From NCBI RefSeq assembly GCF_000378085.1, contig NZ_KB899216.1, positions 62,001-126,000 on the forward strand: DNA of 64,000 bases. Direction: 5' to 3'. Source of the DNA: Hoylesella loescheii DSM 19665 = JCM 12249 = ATCC 15930. Lineage in GTDB: Bacteria > Bacteroidota > Bacteroidia > Bacteroidales > Bacteroidaceae. Each line of letters starts with the position of its first letter. Within the stretch, counting starts at the first letter, position 1. A program made the translations under genes and the position numbers. The notes beneath the pieces were generated by a model. The model made no database searches and had not been told where the DNA came from. It saw only the letters and a list, made by a program, of their open reading frames with translations. This document shows, in pieces, positions 16,669 to 55,108 of the stretch.

Positions 16669-16778
16669 TGTTCCAACTATGATGTAAGGCGTTTCCTTCT
16701 AAGAAATTCGGTCGTTCCATGTTAGCTGGAACAGGGTTACATGCGACATGGAACAGCAGTGCCACATAGGTGTAACGC
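16669..16778. repeat. 22-bp tandem dyad array 2 (five units)
   Basis: Units begin at 16669, 16691, 16713, 16735 and 16757, exactly 22 bp apart. The third is the most symmetric (GTTCCA...TGGAAC); the second is strongly decayed and the fourth combines GTTACA with TGGAAC. It lies between the divergent lipoprotein and TonB-receptor genes, about 180 bp before the receptor's promoter. The remaining part of 16241-17020 shows no gene. Confidence 0.75.
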
Positions 16779-32796: not shown

Positions 32797-33229
32797 GATA
32801 CGCGAGTTTGGGACAAGAGAAACTCGCGTATGCCAACTACCGCGTAGCGGTTGGTCTGTTGGTAGGGCAGGGTTGCGAACGAAGTGAGCTACCCTGTCTT
32901 GCAGATGGAATAACAAAACAAGGCCGAAGGTCTTGGTCTTTTTACATTTAGCGCATCTGCCGTCTAGTCGATAGGCGGATATGAGGGCAAATACTATTGA
33001 TGAATGTCATCGTTTTTATCCATTGGTTTACCTAAAACAGATAGCTCAGCCGTAAAAAGACCAAGGCCTTCGGCCTAGCTTTTCTCACGTACGACTTAGG
33101 CAGGGTAGGTCGCTTTCGCTCCCAACCCTGCCCTACCAACGAACCAACCGCTACGCGGTAGTTGGTGAGATAGCCATTCGTTTTTTATCTAATCTTGCTC
33201 AAAAAGCATCGTATCTTATTCCGAACTTG
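32797..33229. repeat. Large inverted structure built from two copies of a ~113-bp element
   Basis: Left copy 32833-32945 and right copy 33052-33165 are reverse complements over nearly their whole length, with about 106 bp between. Each starts CCAACTACCGCGTAGCGGTTGG-like (itself a hairpin), continues TAGGGCAGGGTTG...CTACCCTG, and ends with GGCCGAAGG...TTGGTCTTTTTAC, which looks like a terminator. Outside, ATACGCGAGTTT/AAACTCGCGTAT (32799-32832) forms a hairpin, and 33166-33229 repeats the core and end of copies A/B at 2.4-3.0 kb. No coding potential. Confidence 0.75.
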
Positions 33230-33483
33230 TAAAAAATTGCTAACCCCAAATCTAAAGATTGTCTTTCAATTTGTTAATTTTGCGGTTTATTTTTACAAAA
33301 CACCCCCTGCGTTTCCATCCCTTCCAGAAGAGTAAGAGTTTATCTTAATAGGCATTGGAACGTAATAATCTACCTTGATTTCATATTTCTAAAATTCTGT
33401 ACTACCAATAAGTAGCCCCACAAACATCACCTTCCCATTTGCTACTGCTCTGTTCTTGTACACTGCTTTCAGGTCTTATGGCT
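33230..33483. other. Non-coding stretch with a -7-like box
   Basis: No gene is recognised. TAATTTTG at 33275-33282 matches the -7 consensus, but no credible reading frame begins within the next 700 bp, so any transcript would be non-coding. Weak evidence. Confidence 0.3.
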
Positions 33484-33593
33484 GGTTACAATTAAGATGT
33501 AACTCTGTTCCAACTTATATGGAATGGTGTTCCAACTTATATGGAACAGTGTTCCAGCTAATGTGTAATGGTGTTACAAACGATATGTAACAC
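33484..33593. repeat. 22-bp tandem dyad array 3 (five units)
   Basis: Units begin at 33484, 33506, 33528, 33550 and 33572, exactly 22 bp apart. Inner units have TGTTCCA...TGGAA arms; the first and last have GTTACA...TGTAAC arms, a matched change on both sides that preserves the dyad. It lies upstream of the FAH-family gene, separated by about 450 bp with no recognised gene. Confidence 0.88.
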
Positions 33594-34048: not shown

Positions 34049-34666
34049 ATGAAGATATTCGCCATAGGAATGAACTACGCCCAACACAATAAAGAGTTGG
34101 ACGGAACGTTATATAAGCCAGAAACACCAGTAGTGTTTACCAAGGCCGATTCGGCATTACTAAAAGACCGCAAGCCGTTTTTCGTGCCCGATTTTATGGG
34201 GCGCATCGACTACGAAGCAGAGTTGGTGGTGCGCATTTCGCGACTGGGCAAGTGCATCTCACAACGCTTTGCCCACCGATATTACGATGCCGTGACGGTG
34301 GGTATCGACTTCACCGCGCGCGACTTACAGCAAAAACTGCGTGCCGAAGGTTTGCCATGGGAACTGTGCAAGGGGTTTGATGGATCTGCCGCCTTGGGTG
34401 ATTGGTTGCCCATTGAGCGGTTTAGAAGTGTGGATGCACTGCATTTTCACCTCGACCAAAATGGGAAGACGGTGCAAGAGGGTTGCACGAGCGACTTACT
34501 TTTTAAGGTAGACGAACTCATTGCTTACATCAGCCGCTTCTTTACGCTAAAAACGGGCGACCTGATTTATACCGGAACGCCCGCTGGAGCCGGACCTGTT
34601 GCCATCGGCGACCACCTCGAAGGTTATCTAGAAGACCAAAAGGTGTTGGAGGTGAGGTGTAAGTAG
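34049..34666 (+). CDS. Fumarylacetoacetate hydrolase-family protein
   Basis: 205 residues, the short single-domain form of the FAH superfamily. Landmarks: MKIFAIGMNYAQHNKEL, the metal-binding acidic motif IDYEAELVVRI (ExE), VTVGIDFTARDLQ, KGFDGSAALGDWLP, and LKTGDLIYTGTPAGAGPVAIGD at the C-terminus. Relatives act as acylpyruvate hydrolases, oxaloacetate decarboxylases or oxaloacetate tautomerases in the cytoplasm; the exact substrate cannot be read from sequence. It is followed by 209 bp of repeats before porU, so probably monocistronic. Confidence 0.9.
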   Translation: MKIFAIGMNYAQHNKELDGTLYKPETPVVFTKADSALLKDRKPFFVPDFMGRIDYEAELVVRISRLGKCISQRFAHRYYDAVTVGIDFTARDLQQKLRAEGLPWELCKGFDGSAALGDWLPIERFRSVDALHFHLDQNGKTVQEGCTSDLLFKVDELIAYISRFFTLKTGDLIYTGTPAGAGPVAIGDHLEGYLEDQKVLEVRCK

Positions 34667-34679
34667 GGGAGTGGATTTT

Positions 34680-34740
34680 GAGGAGTTAAGGAGTAAAGTT
34701 TCAGGAGTTAAGGAGTTATGGAGTTAAGGAGTTAAGCCAA
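34680..34740. repeat. Low-complexity repeat (GGAGTTAAGGAGTTA) before porU
   Basis: Repeats of GAGTTAAG end in GTTAAGCCAAATGC, the same sequence found in the right arm flanking rmuC (52656-52695) and inverted in the left arm (about 51181-51213). It is a third, partial copy of that element. Confidence 0.6.
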
Positions 34741-34767
34741 ATGCTTTGTCGCTGTGTGCCTAATGTC

Positions 34768-34803
34768 CTTGTCAACCGGTCTACTCGTGAGCTTGTCAAC
34801 TCG
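34768..34803. repeat. 24-bp tandem motif CTTGTCAAC before porU
   Basis: CTTGTCAAC occurs at 34768 and 34792, 24 bp apart, with similar bases between. The same pair with the same spacing precedes porV (38589-38623). Confidence 0.55.
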
Positions 34804-34820
34804 AATAACAAGGCATATCA

Positions 34821-34858
34821 CTCCCCTCTCCCTTTGGAGAGGGGGCGGGGGTGAGGCC
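34821..34858. repeat. GC-rich REP-like hairpin 18 bp before porU
   Basis: Arms CCCCTCTCC (34823-34831) and GGAGAGGGG (34836-34844) with loop CTTT, followed by GCGGGGGTGAGGCC. Its place just before the start codon could influence porU translation. Similar CCCCTC...GAGGGG hairpins are dispersed repeats in many bacteria (recalled). Confidence 0.6.
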
Positions 34859-34875
34859 GATTTCTAAGTGCTTTT

Positions 34876-37800
34876 ATGTCAAAATACATACGTTCAGCCA
34901 TATCATTGCTTTTCCTCATGGCATCTTTTGCCATGCAGGCGCAGCGTTTTTTCAACCTCACTTATGACCAAGTGCGGGTAGATAGCATATTGCCCCACTT
35001 CGGATATGCCATCCCCCTAACAGGAAACTACCAAGATTCGATCTACACGGTAAGTATTGTTTACCCCGAGTTTGCCGAGATGACGCGGGCAGACATTGTC
35101 AACTACAACGCCAATTGGGGTAAACAGCTGCCCGAAATGCCGCTGTTGGATCAACGGGTAGTGCTCGACCGCAAGCAAGCCATACTGAATATAGGCTTCT
35201 GCCCATTGGTTTTCCGCAACAACCGCTATCAAATGCTGGTGGGTTTTATGCTCAAAGTAGAGGCCAAAGCCCTGAAACGAACGCACAGAAAAACCTTGGC
35301 CGTAACACGCGCCACACCAAAGGCAGGACGATATGCCGACAACTCGGTACTAGCCACAAGGCGATGGGCCAAGATACGCGTGCCAGCAAGCGGTGTGTAT
35401 CAGATAACCGAGAACCTCATTAAGCAAGCGGGCTTTAACGATATCAATAAGGTGAAGGTGTATGGCTATGGTGGAAATCTGCAAAACGAACGCCTAGACG
35501 GTGTCGAACTGCAAGCCAAAGACGACCTTAAAGAGGTTCCTACGTGCCTTATAGGTGGCAAAAGACTGTTTTATGCCAAAGGTCCTGTAAGTTGGTCGAG
35601 TGTCTCTGCCACGGTGCGCACCCGCAATCCATATTCCGATTACGGCTATTACTTCCTCACGCAGAGTGATGGCGAGCCGCTTCGAGTGGACGAGAGCGCG
35701 TTCTTAAACGCCTTTTACCCCTCTGCCGACGACTATCACAGTCTGCACGAAGTGGATAATTTCTCGTGGTATCCTGGTGGAAGAAACCTCTTCGAGAATA
35801 CGCCCATAAGTCGGGGAACGAAGAAAAGCTACACCATCGATGCCCCCGTGGCCGATGTGGGTGGAAGTATTACGGTGTCGCTTTCGGCTGGAACCGCCAC
35901 GCGAGCCAACATCAGCCTTAACGGCGAACGGCTGGGCGAGATAAACGTATCGATACCTACCCAATACGATAAGGGTAACAAAGCCGATTTTTATGCTAAT
36001 ATCGTGCGGTTCGCGGCCAAGAATGAGGTGACAATCGAAGTGACCGAAGGCGGTCCGGCACGGCTCGACTTCATCTCAATTGCCACAAGCAAGCCCCGAA
36101 GCGCACCCGACTTGTACGCTGCCACCATACCCGCACCGCAGTATGTGCACAATATCACCTCCCAAAACCTGCACGCACATGGGGCGGCAGACATGGTGAT
36201 AGTGATACCAACATCGCAAAAGCTGCGTCAAGAAGCCGAAAGGCTAAAAGTCTTTCACGAAAAACACGATGGCATGCGTGTGCGTATCGTGCCGGCCGAC
36301 GAGCTGTATAACGAGTTTGCTAGTGGTACACCCGACGCCAATGCCTATCGCAGATACCTCAAAATGTTATATGATAGGGCTGAGAACGAGGCCAATCAGC
36401 CTAAGTATTTACTGCTCTTTGGCGACTGCGCATGGGATAACCGCATGAAAACGGCCGACTGGCGCACTGCGTCTGTCGACGATTACCTGCTCTGTTTCGA
36501 AAGCGAGGACTCGTTTAACGAAATAACCTGCTATGTAGACGATGGCTTTTTCACTCTGCTCGACGATGGTGAAGGTGTTAACCTTGAAAGAAGTGACCTG
36601 CAAGATGTGGCTGTTGGTCGTTTCCCCGTTGTGCATTCCGACGACGCACGCACAATGGTAGACAAGACCATTGCATACGCCCAGAATGCCAATGCAGGTG
36701 CATGGCAGAACACCATCATGTTTATGGGCGACGACGGAAACCAAAACTTGCACATGAGCGATGCCAACAGAATGGCCGACAGTGTAGCGGTAGAGCATCC
36801 ACAATACCTGATTAAGAAGGTGATGTGGGACATGTTTAAGCGCGAAGCCAGTGCAACGGGCCACTCTTATCCCGAAGTAACAAACATCATCAAGCAACAA
36901 CAGGCAGCTGGCGCTTTGGTTATGAACTACGTAGGACATGGTCGTACCGACCAAATTTCTCACGAATCGGTGTTGCGCCTCAATGATTTTAAGGCTTTTT
37001 CCAATGCCAATCTGCCCCTTTGGATAACCGCATCGTGCGACATTATGCCTTTCGATGGGGCCGTTCCCACCATTGGCGAGGCTGCCGTATTGAACAAAAA
37101 CGGAGGCGCGGTGGCTTTCTTCGGTACCACGCGAACTGTCTATGCCTATTACAACCAACGCATAAACATGGCCTATCTGCATTTTCTGTTCAGTGAAAAT
37201 GGGGGTAAACCCATGACATTTGGCGAGGCGCAACGCCTTGCCAAGAACTATATGATAACCGATGGACAGGACCAAACCACCAACAAACTTCAATATTCGC
37301 TGTTGGGCGACCCTGCATTGGCTATCAATAAACCCACTGCACGTGTGGTGGTAGACAGCATTAACGGCACGCCCGTGCAAGCTGCAACGCTCCCTGCACT
37401 TACGGCCGGCAAGGTAAACAGCATTGTGGGGCATATCGAAGGGCATGCCAACTTTGCAGGAGTGGTAACTGCGACCGTGCGCGACCGTAAGCAACGCCTC
37501 GTGGGTAGGCTGAACAACGAGTCGAAAGACGATGGTGCCGACACGCCTTTTACCTATACCGACCGCCTTAACACCATCTTTAACGGGGCCGACAGCGTGC
37601 GCAATGGTAAGTTCAAGTTAAACTTCGCCGTACCGCGCGATGTGGATAACGACAGCGGAACGGGTCTTGTAACCCTCTACGCCGTAAACAAAGACCGCAC
37701 CATAAGGGCGCATGGATATAGCGAACGTTTTACCATCGGTGGCGGAGCGTTAGGGGCCAACGACTCTATTGGTCCTTCCATCTACTGTTATCTCAATTCT

Positions 37801-38427
37801 ACCTCGTTCACAAATGGGGGTAACGTAACGCCACAACCACTCTTCGTGGCCAAGATTTCGGATAAAGATGGACTGAACGCAGCGGGCAGTGGCATTGGGC
37901 ACGATATGCAATTGGTTATCGATGGCAACATGAACAAGACCTATAACCTGAACGACCACTTCGCGTTCGACTTTGGTTCGTACACCGCAGGTACGGTAAT
38001 GTTCAACATTCCCACGCTATCGCCTGGCAAACATAAGCTTCAATTTAGGGCCAGCGACGTGCAAAACAACACGTCGCAAGTAACGCTCGACTTTAACGTG
38101 GTGGGTGGATTGATGGCCGACAACATTTGGATAGACGCCACCGACAACCCCGCACGCACCTCAACCACCTTCATCGTGAGCCACGACATGGGTAACACGC
38201 CCATAGATGTTACGATTGAGGTGTTTGACATGACAGGAAAACTATTGTGGGCAGGTGAAGAACGAGGCGCGCAAACTGTGGGTAACTACACCCGAACATG
38301 GGATTTGGTGTGCACAGATGGGCATGTTCTCTCGGCGGGTGTTTACCTTTATCGGGCCAAAGTGGCTGCGCAAGGCTCTTCTAAGACATCAAAAGCACGC
38401 AAACTTATTGTGCAAGGCAAGCGATAA
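34876..38427 (+). CDS. porU: Type IX secretion system sortase PorU
   Basis: 1183 residues, usual length for PorU. Signal peptide about 1-22 (MQAQ). A long beta-rich N-terminal region precedes the gingipain-like C25 peptidase domain (about 430-830): YLLLFGDCAWDNRM, DVAVGRFPVVHSDDARTMVDK, MNYVGHGRTDQISHE with His688 and LWITASCDIMPFD with Cys721, the expected His/Cys catalytic pair. The C-terminal domain ends in a sorting-signal-like sequence (GVYLYRAKVA...ARKLIVQGKR). PorU removes the C-terminal signal of T9SS cargo at the cell surface and attaches the cargo to anionic LPS. porV follows 212 bp downstream. Confidence 0.95.
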   Translation: MSKYIRSAISLLFLMASFAMQAQRFFNLTYDQVRVDSILPHFGYAIPLTGNYQDSIYTVSIVYPEFAEMTRADIVNYNANWGKQLPEMPLLDQRVVLDRKQAILNIGFCPLVFRNNRYQMLVGFMLKVEAKALKRTHRKTLAVTRATPKAGRYADNSVLATRRWAKIRVPASGVYQITENLIKQAGFNDINKVKVYGYGGNLQNERLDGVELQAKDDLKEVPTCLIGGKRLFYAKGPVSWSSVSATVRTRNPYSDYGYYFLTQSDGEPLRVDESAFLNAFYPSADDYHSLHEVDNFSWYPGGRNLFENTPISRGTKKSYTIDAPVADVGGSITVSLSAGTATRANISLNGERLGEINVSIPTQYDKGNKADFYANIVRFAAKNEVTIEVTEGGPARLDFISIATSKPRSAPDLYAATIPAPQYVHNITSQNLHAHGAADMVIVIPTSQKLRQEAERLKVFHEKHDGMRVRIVPADELYNEFASGTPDANAYRRYLKMLYDRAENEANQPKYLLLFGDCAWDNRMKTADWRTASVDDYLLCFESEDSFNEITCYVDDGFFTLLDDGEGVNLERSDLQDVAVGRFPVVHSDDARTMVDKTIAYAQNANAGAWQNTIMFMGDDGNQNLHMSDANRMADSVAVEHPQYLIKKVMWDMFKREASATGHSYPEVTNIIKQQQAAGALVMNYVGHGRTDQISHESVLRLNDFKAFSNANLPLWITASCDIMPFDGAVPTIGEAAVLNKNGGAVAFFGTTRTVYAYYNQRINMAYLHFLFSENGGKPMTFGEAQRLAKNYMITDGQDQTTNKLQYSLLGDPALAINKPTARVVVDSINGTPVQAATLPALTAGKVNSIVGHIEGHANFAGVVTATVRDRKQRLVGRLNNESKDDGADTPFTYTDRLNTIFNGADSVRNGKFKLNFAVPRDVDNDSGTGLVTLYAVNKDRTIRAHGYSERFTIGGGALGANDSIGPSIYCYLNSTSFTNGGNVTPQPLFVAKISDKDGLNAAGSGIGHDMQLVIDGNMNKTYNLNDHFAFDFGSYTAGTVMFNIPTLSPGKHKLQFRASDVQNNTSQVTLDFNVVGGLMADNIWIDATDNPARTSTTFIVSHDMGNTPIDVTIEVFDMTGKLLWAGEERGAQTVGNYTRTWDLVCTDGHVLSAGVYLYRAKVAAQGSSKTSKARKLIVQGKR

Positions 38428-38588
38428 ACGGGGATGGAGGGTGAAACAACAAAGCATGTATGCGCAAGAAATTGTATGTGTTTCGACCCCTCTTGACAAT
38501 AAACCCCGCAATGTTACGTTTATAAAGCGAACAAAGAAACAAACGTTTTGTTAAGCGTAATGTGCAACGCCAAGTCTGTCGAAGCAGT

Positions 38589-38623
38589 CTTGTCAACTCG
38601 TTAAGTCGTAAACTTGTCAACTA
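38589..38623. repeat. 24-bp tandem motif CTTGTCAAC before porV
   Basis: CTTGTCAACT occurs at 38589 and 38613, 24 bp apart, ending 17 bp before the porV ATG. It matches the pair before porU. A single CTTGTCAACTA also precedes the VOC gene near 47014. Confidence 0.55.
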
Positions 38624-38639
38624 AATAAAGAATAAATAA

Positions 38640-39827
38640 ATGACCACATTTAAACGTATAGCCCTTGTCTGCACGCTCGCCATATCGGCAACAACAGCTT
38701 GGGCCGACGACAAAAAAGAAATATTCAACCCCGTAAGAAGCTCGGTGACCTCGCAAACCATTGCCCCCGATGCCCGCTCGGCAGGTTTGGGCGACGTTGG
38801 AGCAGCAACGGATGCCGACGTTTATTCGCAGTTTTGGAACCCCGCCAAATATCCTTTCGCCATCTCGAGGGCTGGTGTGGGACTGAGTTATACGCCTTGG
38901 TTGCGCCAATTGGTTAACGATATAGGCCTGGCTTACATGTCGGGCTACTACCGTATAGGCGATTATGCCGCCATATCGGCAGGCATCCGTTACTTCTCTT
39001 TGGGTGAAGTGTCAACCTACGACGGAAGTGGTGGCTCGGGTTCAGCACCAACACTCACCATCCGACCTTACGAAATGTCGGCCGATGTGGCATATTCGTT
39101 GATGTTAAGTGAGAAGTTCTCTATCGCCGCAGGTGTGCGTTGGATATACTCCGACCTAACTTACAGCTACACCGACAATACTACTCCAGGTTCGGCTTTT
39201 GCTGCCGACCTCGGCTTGTACTACCAAAACTACGTTAATATCGGACAACGCGAATGCCAATTGGGTATCGGTATGAACATATCTAATATTGGTAGCAAGA
39301 TTACTATGGGCGAAGATGCCAACAGCGAGTTCATCCCCACCAACCTCCGTTTGGGTGCTTCGCTGATGATTCCCATAGACGAATACAATCGTTTCACTAT
39401 CGCCGCCGATGCCAACAAATTGTTGGTGCCCACTTATCCACATCAAAACGAGGGTGAATCGACCGAAGATTACCAACGCCGTGTTCAAAAAGATTATTAC
39501 GATGTGTCGTCTATCGGTGGCATATTTAAGAGCTTTGGCGACGCGCCAGGTGGATTTAAGGAAGAATTAGAAGAGATAAACCTAAGCGTGGGAGCAGAAT
39601 ATGTGTACCATGATCAGTTTAGTGTGCGTGCTGGATATCATCACGAAAGCGCCAATAAGGGAAATAGAAAGTACTTTACGGTGGGTGCAGGTTTCAAGAT
39701 GAGTGCCTTTACACTCGACGCTGGTTATGTTATCGCCACGGCCAAGAGCAATCCGCTGGACCAAACCATGCGTTTTTCGCTCACGTTTGACATGGACGGG
39801 TTGAAAGATTTGTTTAAACGCAGGTAA
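38640..39827 (+). CDS. porV: Type IX secretion system outer-membrane protein PorV
   Basis: 395 residues. Signal peptide about 1-22 (TTAWADD). The PorV/LptO signature follows: VTSQTIAPDARSAGLGDVGAATDADVYSQFWNPAKYPF, then a FadL-like 14-strand barrel (GVRWIYSDLTYSY, LGIGMNISNIGSKITMG, YHDQFSVRAGYHHESANKGNRKYFTVGAGFKM) ending LDQTMRFSLTFDMDGLKD. PorV shuttles folded cargo from the Sov channel to the attachment complex with PorU. The order porU-porV is conserved in Bacteroidales with a T9SS. The other T9SS genes are not in this window. Confidence 0.95.
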   Translation: MTTFKRIALVCTLAISATTAWADDKKEIFNPVRSSVTSQTIAPDARSAGLGDVGAATDADVYSQFWNPAKYPFAISRAGVGLSYTPWLRQLVNDIGLAYMSGYYRIGDYAAISAGIRYFSLGEVSTYDGSGGSGSAPTLTIRPYEMSADVAYSLMLSEKFSIAAGVRWIYSDLTYSYTDNTTPGSAFAADLGLYYQNYVNIGQRECQLGIGMNISNIGSKITMGEDANSEFIPTNLRLGASLMIPIDEYNRFTIAADANKLLVPTYPHQNEGESTEDYQRRVQKDYYDVSSIGGIFKSFGDAPGGFKEELEEINLSVGAEYVYHDQFSVRAGYHHESANKGNRKYFTVGAGFKMSAFTLDAGYVIATAKSNPLDQTMRFSLTFDMDGLKDLFKRR

Positions 39828-39833
39828 GTTATT

Positions 39834-40103
39834 GAGTTTTTTTAGTTGGTGAGTTATTGAGTTTCTGAGGTTGTAAATTTCGGAGTTTGCGAGTTAATAG
39901 GCTTAAAAACTCACCCATTCAAAACCTTATAAACTAAACATCTCAATAACTTACCAACTAAAAAACTCGAAAACTTACCCTCTAAGAACTCATCAATTCA
40001 CAACCTCATCAACTAAAAAGCTCAATAACTCACTCACTCATAACTTACCAACTCATAACCTCATCAACTAAAAAACTCAATAACTCACCCACTCACAACC
40101 TCA
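39834..40103. repeat. AACTCA-rich low-complexity repeats with internal inverted repeat, before ispF
   Basis: Nearly the whole gap consists of variants of CTCAATAACTCACC and ACCTCATCAACTAAAAA. Arms at 39834-39861 and 39942-39968 are inverted (GAGTTTTTTTAGTTGGTGAG versus CTTACCAACTAAAAAACTC). A 55-bp direct duplication starts at 40004 and 40059. The array runs up to the ispF start codon. Confidence 0.7.
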
Positions 40104-47721: not shown

Positions 47722-47809
47722 TGTTCCAGATTAACTGGAACAACATTCCATCTTACATGGAACAATGTTCCAGATGATGTGGAACAACATTCCAGCTAAG
47801 CTGGAACAA
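47722..47809. repeat. 22-bp tandem dyad array 4 (four clear units)
   Basis: Units start at 47722, 47744, 47766 and 47788, exactly 22 bp apart, with arms TTCCA and TGGAACA and variable centres (e.g. GATTAAC, TCTTACA, GATGATG, GCTAAGC). A fifth degenerate unit may occupy 47810-47831. This is the most regular of the four TTCCA arrays. Confidence 0.9.
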
Positions 47810-50058: not shown

Positions 50059-50979
50059 ATGGAAGAACAATCTAAACGCAAACCTTATCTGAGAAAACCT
50101 AAATGGCTTTACACCACGATTGAGGGTGGAGAAAAGTACGGATTTGTAGAGAAAACGCTCGAAGAGAATGGTTTGCACACGATATGTAGTAGTGGGAAAT
50201 GCCCTAACAAGGGGCATTGCTGGAAGAGCGGAACGGCCACCTTTATGATATTGGGTGACCGTTGCACGCGTGCATGTAGGTTTTGTGCCACGCAAACAGG
50301 CCATCCCTTGCCACCCGATCCGCACGAACCGTTGAAGATTGCACGAAGTGTGAAGGCCATGGAGCTAAGGCATTGCGTGATAACTTCGGTTGATCGCGAC
50401 GATTTAGCAGACAAGGGATCGGCGCATTGGGCTGAAACCATCCGCCGAATACGCGAATATTGTCCGGAGATTATTATCGAAGTGCTTATCCCTGACTATC
50501 GTGGGCAGGAGCTGCAAACGGTGTTAGACGCTGCACCCGACATCGTTGGGCATAACCTGGAAACAGTGGAAAGGCTCACACCTGGTGTTCGTCATCGTGC
50601 CACTTACCGCAATAGCATGGGTACTTTGCGCGAGATTGCCGAACGAGGCTTTATCGCCAAAACGGGAATAATGGTGGGATTGGGCGAAACGCAAGAAGAA
50701 GTGAAAGCCCTATTGCAGGAGGCTTACGACGTGGGATGCCGCATGATAACCATCGGACAGTATCTTCAACCGAGCGAAAATCAATTGGATGTGGTGGAAT
50801 ATGTTCACCCCGACACCTTCTTAGACTATAAGCGGACTGCCGTGCGCATGGGTTACGACAATGCCGAAAGCTCTCCGCTGGTGCGCTCTTCGTATATGGC
50901 TGAACAGTCGTTTATAAGTATGCTTGTACGGAAAAAGAAGTTGGAGGGGAAGAATAAGGGTGAAAAGGTGAAGGAGTGA
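50059..50979 (+). CDS. lipA: Lipoyl synthase
   Basis: 306 residues from ATG 50059 (an in-frame ATG at 50023 would add 12 residues without family support). A radical-SAM enzyme that inserts two sulfurs into octanoyl-protein. Both iron-sulfur sites are intact: the auxiliary cluster CSSGKCPNKGHC (CxxxxCxxxxxC type) and the SAM cluster CTRACRFC. Further motifs: VITSVDRDDLADKGSAHWAETIRRIR, DIVGHNLETVERLTP, KTGIMVGLGETQEEV, and the C-terminal SSPLVRSSYMAEQ with the RSSY motif. It needs an octanoyl transferase (LipB), not seen in this window. Confidence 0.97.
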   Translation: MEEQSKRKPYLRKPKWLYTTIEGGEKYGFVEKTLEENGLHTICSSGKCPNKGHCWKSGTATFMILGDRCTRACRFCATQTGHPLPPDPHEPLKIARSVKAMELRHCVITSVDRDDLADKGSAHWAETIRRIREYCPEIIIEVLIPDYRGQELQTVLDAAPDIVGHNLETVERLTPGVRHRATYRNSMGTLREIAERGFIAKTGIMVGLGETQEEVKALLQEAYDVGCRMITIGQYLQPSENQLDVVEYVHPDTFLDYKRTAVRMGYDNAESSPLVRSSYMAEQSFISMLVRKKKLEGKNKGEKVKE

Positions 50980-51213
50980 AAAGGTGAAAAGATGGCTAAC
51001 GCCCTTTAAAAGTGAAAAAGTGAAAGGGTGAAAAGATGGCTAACGCCTTTTAAAGGTGAAAAAGTGAAAAGGTGAAAAGATGGCTGAGGCCTTTTAAAGA
51101 TGTAAGAGGGAAAGGGTGGTTGATGCCTCGAACTTCTTTGCAACTCATAAACTTACAAACTTATAAACTCAAAAACTCATAGGCATTTGGCTTAACTTCT
51201 TAACTCCATAACC
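50976..51213. repeat. Left inverted arm flanking rmuC, with three 44-bp tandem units
   Basis: GTGAAAAGATGGCT starts at 50984, 51028 and 51072, exactly 44 bp apart; the third unit runs into ATGCCTCGAACTTC...CTCATAGGCATTTGGC. The reverse complement of this arm recurs at 52656-52859 with only scattered differences but with two units instead of three. A shorter related stretch follows at about 51217-51312 (CATTTGGCTTAACTCC). Confidence 0.88.
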
Positions 51214-51320
51214 CTTAAAGGTGAAAGAGTGAGAAGGTGAAAAGGTGAAAAAATGGCTGACGCCACCTATTCATTTGGCTTAACTCCTTAACTCCATAAC
51301 TCCTTAACTCCTAGACAATC

Positions 51321-52655: not shown

Positions 52656-52859
52656 GAAGTTAAGGAGTTATGGAGTTAAGGAGTTAAGCCAAATGCCTAT
52701 GAGTTTTTGAGTTTATAAGCTTGTAAGTTTATGAGTTGCAAAGAAGCTCGAGGCATCAACCACCCTTTCCCTCTTACATCTTTAAAGGGCTTTAGCCATC
52801 TTTTCACCCTTTCACTTTTTCACTTTTAAAGGGCGTTAGCCATCTTTTCACCTTTTCAA
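52656..52859. repeat. Right inverted arm flanking rmuC
   Basis: Reverse complement of the left arm (50976-51213), including AAGCCAAATGCCTATGAG, TGCAAAGAAGCTCGAGGCAT and CACCCTTTCCCTCTTACATC. It has two 44-bp units where the left arm has three. It fills most of the 290-bp gap between pyrH and rmuC. Confidence 0.88.
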
Positions 52860-52909
52860 TTTTTCACCCTTTCACCTTTAAGGGATTGAGGGTGAGGCTT
52901 TTTTATCCT

Positions 52910-54975: not shown

Positions 54976-55108
54976 TTGTAGTGTGGCTACAAGCCTTTTG
55001 TAGCGCGACTACAAGTCTTTTGTAGCGTGACTACAAGCCTTTTGTAGTGTGGCTACAAGCCTTTTGTAGTGTGACTACAAGCACTTTTGTAGTGCCACTC
55101 CACTTAAT
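54976..55108. repeat. 22-bp tandem dyad array 5 (TTGTAG/CTACAA type)
   Basis: TTGTAG begins at 54976, 54998, 55020, 55042 and 55064 (22 bp apart) and again at 55087 (23 bp). Each unit is TTGTAG, five bases, CTACAA, then GCCTT or similar. The centres vary (TGTGG, CGCGA, CGTGA) while the arms stay perfect inverted repeats. A related dyad TTGTAACGATGTTACAA lies at 55127-55143. The sequence differs from the TTCCA arrays but the period is the same. Confidence 0.9.

Follow-up and report, generated by a model that had tools for sequence, protein, structure and literature searches.

The window analysed here is a stretch of 64,000 nucleotides of the Hoylesella loescheii genome. At 33484–33593 it carries five 22-bp dyads at exact 22-bp steps (starts 33484, 33506, 33528, 33550 and 33572), as the earlier note on this DNA had described. 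The array belongs to the set of sequences here referred to as family A and lies on the minus strand by its flank motif; in this orientation of the window element, U0 is at 33572–33593 and U4 at 33484–33505. The outermost half-sites are of the TTACA type. In fact, units 1 and 5 have TTACA/TGTAA arms and units 2 and 3 have TTCCA/TGGAA arms, as had been noted, but unit 4 (TGTTCCAGCTAATGTGTAATGG) combines a left TTCCA arm with a right TGTAA arm; of the three units claimed as TTCCA/TGGAA, one is therefore changed on one side only. The units are contiguous, without unique spacers between the repeats, and a CRISPR array was rejected. No Rfam match at gathering score was obtained within the window. 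The flank-oriented family has about five units (U0–U4), a loose left flank and a loosely conserved right flank, ggcgngagntnAAAAAGctnnntACAAG, which the right flank of the window element (agccataagacctgaaagcagtgtacaag, 33423–33483, minus strand) matches.

Beyond this flank lies, in two pieces, the end unit (X/Y, about 120 bp, termini CGCGAGTTCGGGATAA) that bounds the 586-bp element form described below. One piece is at 32801–32849 (C7 94801–94849) and the second at 33155–33225, both on the minus strand, and an inverted-repeat insert of about 305 bp is found between them. The insert that splits the end unit is itself MITE-like: it spans 32833–33165, with arms at 32833–32883 and 33115–33165 (51 nt, 92%), inner arms at 32915–32945 and 33052–33082, and terminator-like stems inside. 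Downstream of the array, at 34049–39827, an FAA-hydrolase gene is followed by a porU-like C25-peptidase gene and porV, which are type IX secretion genes. Among 29 relatives with the downstream gene, a 22-bp array, of different sequence, was present in the corresponding upstream gap of G017 only, a single case. Intergenic microsatellites of 8, 16 and 24 bp, of the AACTCATA / GGTGAAAA type, are found at 34681–34736, 39823–40099, 50956–51312 and 52658–52879, and are common in the genome.

The window holds four further 22-bp arrays, three of family A and one of another sequence. The family-A arrays are all on the minus strand: one of five units with full element flanks (2710–2819), a degenerate copy (16669–16756) and one of four units (47722–47809). 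The gaps between the four family-A arrays of the window are 14.0, 16.8 and 14.2 kb. The remaining array (54976–55094, strand not assigned) belongs to family B, which has the 22-bp dyad plan of family A with a different sequence (TTGTAGTGTGACTACAAGCCTT). Allowing up to two mismatches, the window has 16 occurrences of TGTTnCA-N7-TGnAACA where 4.3 would be expected, and none of 100 shuffles had as many.

The genome search that the earlier note had suggested shows that the array is no one-off but one of a genome-wide family. The exact pattern TGTTnCA-N7-TGnAACA occurs 193 times in the 3.5-Mb genome and its reversed form not at all; with one mismatch allowed the whole-genome numbers are 427 and 13. 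We read 1.08 Mb (C1:1–600000, C7:1–160000 and C2:1–320000), of which the first 760 kb, on C1 and C7, contains 51 arrays, and obtained 73 family-A arrays of at least two units, from which we estimate by scaling about 230 in the genome. None of the 73 arrays lies within a predicted gene, the genes being called by a simple codon-usage script that may miss small ones. Arrays are found in convergent gaps in 30 of 73 cases, compared with 24% by length (P=0.0007). For every one of the first 51 arrays the nearest predicted gene is at least 100 bp away, and the element shows no bias in orientation relative to genes (10 same, 12 opposite). Moreover, family B (TTGTAGTGnnACTACAA), a second 22-bp dyad family, has 17 arrays in the 1.08 Mb.

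The conserved core of the family-A unit is TTCCAnnTnAnnTGGAA. Among 202 units, T4 is conserved in 100% and A18 in 99%, and T10 and A12 each in about 95%, which contradicts the claim that the centres are free to vary. The 51 arrays contain 255 dyads, of which 91 have the A variant on one side only, and 19 have it in both arms, where 20.3 would be expected (P=0.8). The A variant is therefore unlinked between the arms of a dyad. Changes are uncorrelated at the unit level, the outcome that the earlier note had set against its own reading of matched arm changes, and within-dyad covariation was ruled out across the 51 arrays. What the A variant does mark is the outermost half-sites, which carry it in 75 of 102 cases, compared with 54 of 408 for the inner ones (P=5e-32). 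Family B has the end variant TTGTAC (11/26 outer, 9/79 inner), and family 1 of a second array-rich genome, G026, has TTCTACA (4/22 outer, 0/71 inner); end variants are absent from family 2 of that genome. We read the array as half-sites that follow one another at steps of about 11 bp with alternating orientation, the ends tending to the variant in families A, B and G026 family 1. The idea that all dyads lie on one helix face is plausible but approximate, since 22 bp correspond to 2.1 turns at 10.5 bp per turn.

As single strands, the arrays fold far better than shuffles (z of -5 to -8). This, together with their location between genes and the preference for convergent gaps, would suit RNA-level hairpins, in which arrays transcribed at gene ends form stem-loops that stabilise or end transcripts. 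We consider this unlikely. The arm changes of family A are uncompensated within the dyad and the stem stops short of positions 8–14, the arrays have the distance from genes and the lack of orientation bias described above, terminator-like sites near the window array are at 32919–33076, outside the array, and a strict 22-bp period would be unnecessary for such a role. A single long hairpin was rejected as well: the outer half-sites mirror each other, but, as we read the consensus, the centres of the mirrored units are unpaired.

The arrays are spaced evenly along the chromosome. As the null, the same number of arrays was placed randomly between genes, in gaps of 300 bp or more. For the 46 family-A gaps of C1 and C7 the coefficient of variation (CV) is 0.39 against 0.85 at random (sd 0.12), none of 4000 placements was as even, and one gap is shorter than 6 kb against 11 expected. 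The unchanged test on C2, which was read later, gave for 22 arrays a CV of 0.40 against 0.80 and zero gaps below 6 kb against 5.6 expected. The pooled 67 gaps have a mean of 15.1 kb, a 5–95% range of 8.7–26 kb, no serial correlation and about nine genes per gap. Family-B arrays also tend to keep away from those of family A, with a pooled median distance of 7.0 kb against 3.3 kb at random (P=0.0016). This avoidance is significant on C1/C7; on C2, 3 of 6 B arrays have an A array no more than about 2 kb away, and pairs 0.5–2 kb apart mean that avoidance between the families is not strict.

We then turn to other genomes, where the search in relatives found the build but few of the letters. None of 71 same-genus genomes has more than seven exact family-A units, so the family-A sequence, by this count, is nearly private to the species, while the 22-bp build recurs elsewhere. 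A blind detector, whose only criteria are similarity of the sequence to itself at a set lag and reverse-complement symmetry, found 47 arrays at lag 22 on C1, compared with 0–1 at lags 18–21 and 23–26. In same-genus samples (333 kb) it found four at lag 22 and none at any of the remaining lags between 10 and 40. In other families of the order (350 kb) the strict setting gave none at lag 22; the looser setting gave three, with similar numbers at other lags, which indicates background. Several same-genus samples of 20 kb have no array, so the class is patchy, and whatever the arrays do cannot be essential genus-wide.

In G026, the 555 kb read contain 44 array loci at a mean spacing of 12.3 kb. 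They fall into several families of unrelated sequence, mostly with a 22-bp and in one case with a 21-bp period, and none of 45 detector hits is inside a gene. One gap is below 4 kb against 7.4 expected (P=0.0012); the CV of spacing alone, against a gap-based null, is not significant (P=0.13). The 21-bp family (ATTATC...GATAAT; G026 C1:45867, 73760, 247760 and 442699) is, in that genome, the most distinct of the strong families whose period is not 22 bp. The commonest G026 family, TTATACA/TGTATAA, is shared with G003 only among 60 genomes. TGTTACA..TGTAACA units were found in MAGs of uncultured Prevotella (40 in G119, 7 in G121) and TGTTTCA..TGAAACA units in a MAG of Candidatus Bacteroides intestinipullorum (12 in G120). 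The arms are thus TTCCA/TGGAA here, TTACA/TGTAA in G119 and G121, TTTCA/TGAAA in G120 and TTATACA/TGTATAA in G026 and G003. Arms changed on both sides between genomes indicate that the dyad is kept across species while its letters differ, though uncompensated unit by unit; the proposal of selection for the dyad rather than for the sequence is thus supported between species, and no matching is found between units.

Two further explanations can be weighed here. Neutral minisatellites, that is, functionless tandem duplications at arbitrary intergenic sites, have some appeal in a genome that also contains the intergenic microsatellites described above, yet dyads almost wholly at period 22 across unrelated sequences and species, and a spacing far from random, already disfavour them and leave this explanation quite improbable. 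DNA uptake or recognition sequences, as the DUS of Neisseria or the USS of Haemophilus, are species-specific dialects evenly spread over a genome, which would suit the even spacing and the species-private sequence with a common layout. Uptake sequences are mostly single and often within genes, while the units here are clustered by about five, strictly intergenic and in several dialects within one genome, and we regard this explanation as very improbable.

Many of the arrays have a carrier. About 20 of the 51 lie centrally in a 586-bp element that has two inverted end units of about 120 bp with CGCGAGTTCGGGATAA termini and whose copies are 75–90% identical, and a longer element of about 800 bp is common to 4 of the 51. 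In the 32 copies that lack the long element, the array and its close flanks alone align. Conservation peaks in the array and declines outward along the element. The terminal inverted repeats are present in about 20 of the 51 copies and were not found in the rest, the window copy having them only partly. Better-kept copies have TA at both borders; no longer duplication was seen. The end motif CGCGAGTTCGGGATAA, within one mismatch, occurs about 99 times in the genome against 0 for the control. Nearly all end-unit matches in the 760 kb lie next to an array, and an autonomous parent element was not seen in that region.

These features bring in the main rival explanation, in which the arrays are transposase or regulator sites of selfish MITE-like elements and the even spacing arises from target immunity, without host function. 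In target immunity, as known from Mu and Tn7, an inserted copy blocks further insertions nearby, and the ends of these elements carry 22-bp binding sites. Arrays and Mu/Tn7 ends are alike in having 22-bp protein sites (binding being inferred here) in short arrays, and immunity would give spacing; the sites here differ in their dyad symmetry and in their central place within the element. The inverted-ended element with its TA borders, the excess of end motifs and the strong exclusion within the family all speak for such mobility, as does BrickBuilt of Porphyromonas gingivalis, a MITE with a tandem minisatellite inside it (PMC4596501). Against it, the arrays are central rather than terminal and outlast the element flanks, the end units occur almost only beside arrays, without an autonomous parent in the 760 kb, and no clear target-site duplication extends beyond TA. 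Moreover, arrays of unrelated sequence stay at a distance from one another in G026, and family B shows a tendency to avoid family A; such avoidance between families would not be explained by family-specific immunity. Taken together, this rival is a serious possibility that we nevertheless hold to be rather doubtful.

The nearest known kinds are BrickBuilt and BIME/REP arrays. BrickBuilt (PMC4596501) is a 23-nt repeat with 19 copies of 1–23 near-identical units, confined by BLAST to P. gingivalis and P. gulae, with IS5-like terminal inverted repeats GAGACCTTTGCA; the paper also cites 22-/23-nt direct repeats of P. gingivalis strain W83. Both kinds occur in Bacteroidales and are intergenic, with tandem units of about 22 nt, a leader, a tail and an inverted-ended element, predicted stem-loops and dispersed copies. 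The arrays here differ in being strict 22-bp dyads of about 4–6 units, an estimated 230 in number, evenly spaced and with end variants, and the terminal repeat CGCGAGTTCGGGATAA differs from the published BrickBuilt one.

The BIME/REP (PU) arrays of enterobacteria are similar in that palindromic units, outside genes and often close to their 3' ends, form short arrays of alternating half-sites, with several families per genome. BIMEs have conserved REP units of 30–40 nt, and RAYT transposases frequently accompany REP elements. In contrast, RAYT (PF01797, Y1_Tnp) is absent from the present genome (G000) and from G026, both array-rich, and period and even spacing differ; a REP/RAYT origin was rejected. 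The arms TGTTnCA ... TGnAACA have the letters of the parS half-site, but the spacer is 7 instead of 2 and other array families use unrelated arms. ParB parS (TGTTnCACGTGnAACA, 16 bp) was accordingly rejected, the arrays having N7 spacers; a single exact parS-like site (TGTTTCACGTGGAACA) is found in G000 at C2:14533–14548, outside the arrays. A phage origin was also rejected, the two-unit pattern having no match in viral contigs. A search of the open-access literature for Prevotella/Bacteroides 22-bp arrays led to BrickBuilt only, and no description of evenly spaced 22-bp dyad arrays in Bacteroidota was found.

We tentatively favour, at somewhat short of an even chance, helically phased protein-binding arrays that serve as spaced chromosomal sites and are partly spread by MITE-like elements. 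The fixed period, the symmetry of the half-sites, their fixed non-stem bases, the lack of gene-orientation bias, the distance of at least 100 bp from genes and the even spacing argue for DNA-level protein sites rather than RNA hairpins. Half-sites (TTCCAnnT in family A) alternating about every 11 bp would stack 4–6 dyads at a 22-bp period, with a variant half-site that, in the best-sampled families, tends to stand at the outer ends. A dimeric DNA-binding protein, we infer, may assemble on each array into a nucleoprotein block, whose job, presumably at the DNA level and on the chromosome scale, could be that of a supercoiling-domain boundary, a nucleoid or partition anchor, or a gyrase-type relief site. 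Such a job would keep about one array per nine genes, with crowded copies being lost; sequence families would turn over between species while the job persists, and copies would spread in part with the 586-bp element and its inverted ends of about 120 bp. Counting against this reading, a genome with several half-site families would require several proteins, unless shape and not sequence is what is recognised.

The 22-bp build, kept with different sequences in related bacteria, hints at a protein-bound element that organises the chromosome. A broader proposal, possible but doubtful, is that Prevotella-like bacteria share a clade-wide chromosome punctuation, in which phased 22-bp dyad arrays lie every 12–15 kb or so and their letters are replaced between species, while period, dyad plan and spacing are kept because they would anchor or insulate chromosomal domains. 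To our knowledge, there is little information on where Bacteroidota have their domain boundaries and nucleoid anchors. Under either explanation, protein sites or mobile elements, it is unusual for the geometry to stay fixed while the sequence changes, and no description of this was found in the open-access text searched. If the arrays are domain or anchor sites, they would provide a ready map of an estimated 230–280 positions; if they belong to a mobile element with target immunity, they would clearly record, in a natural setting, how immunity has shaped a chromosome.
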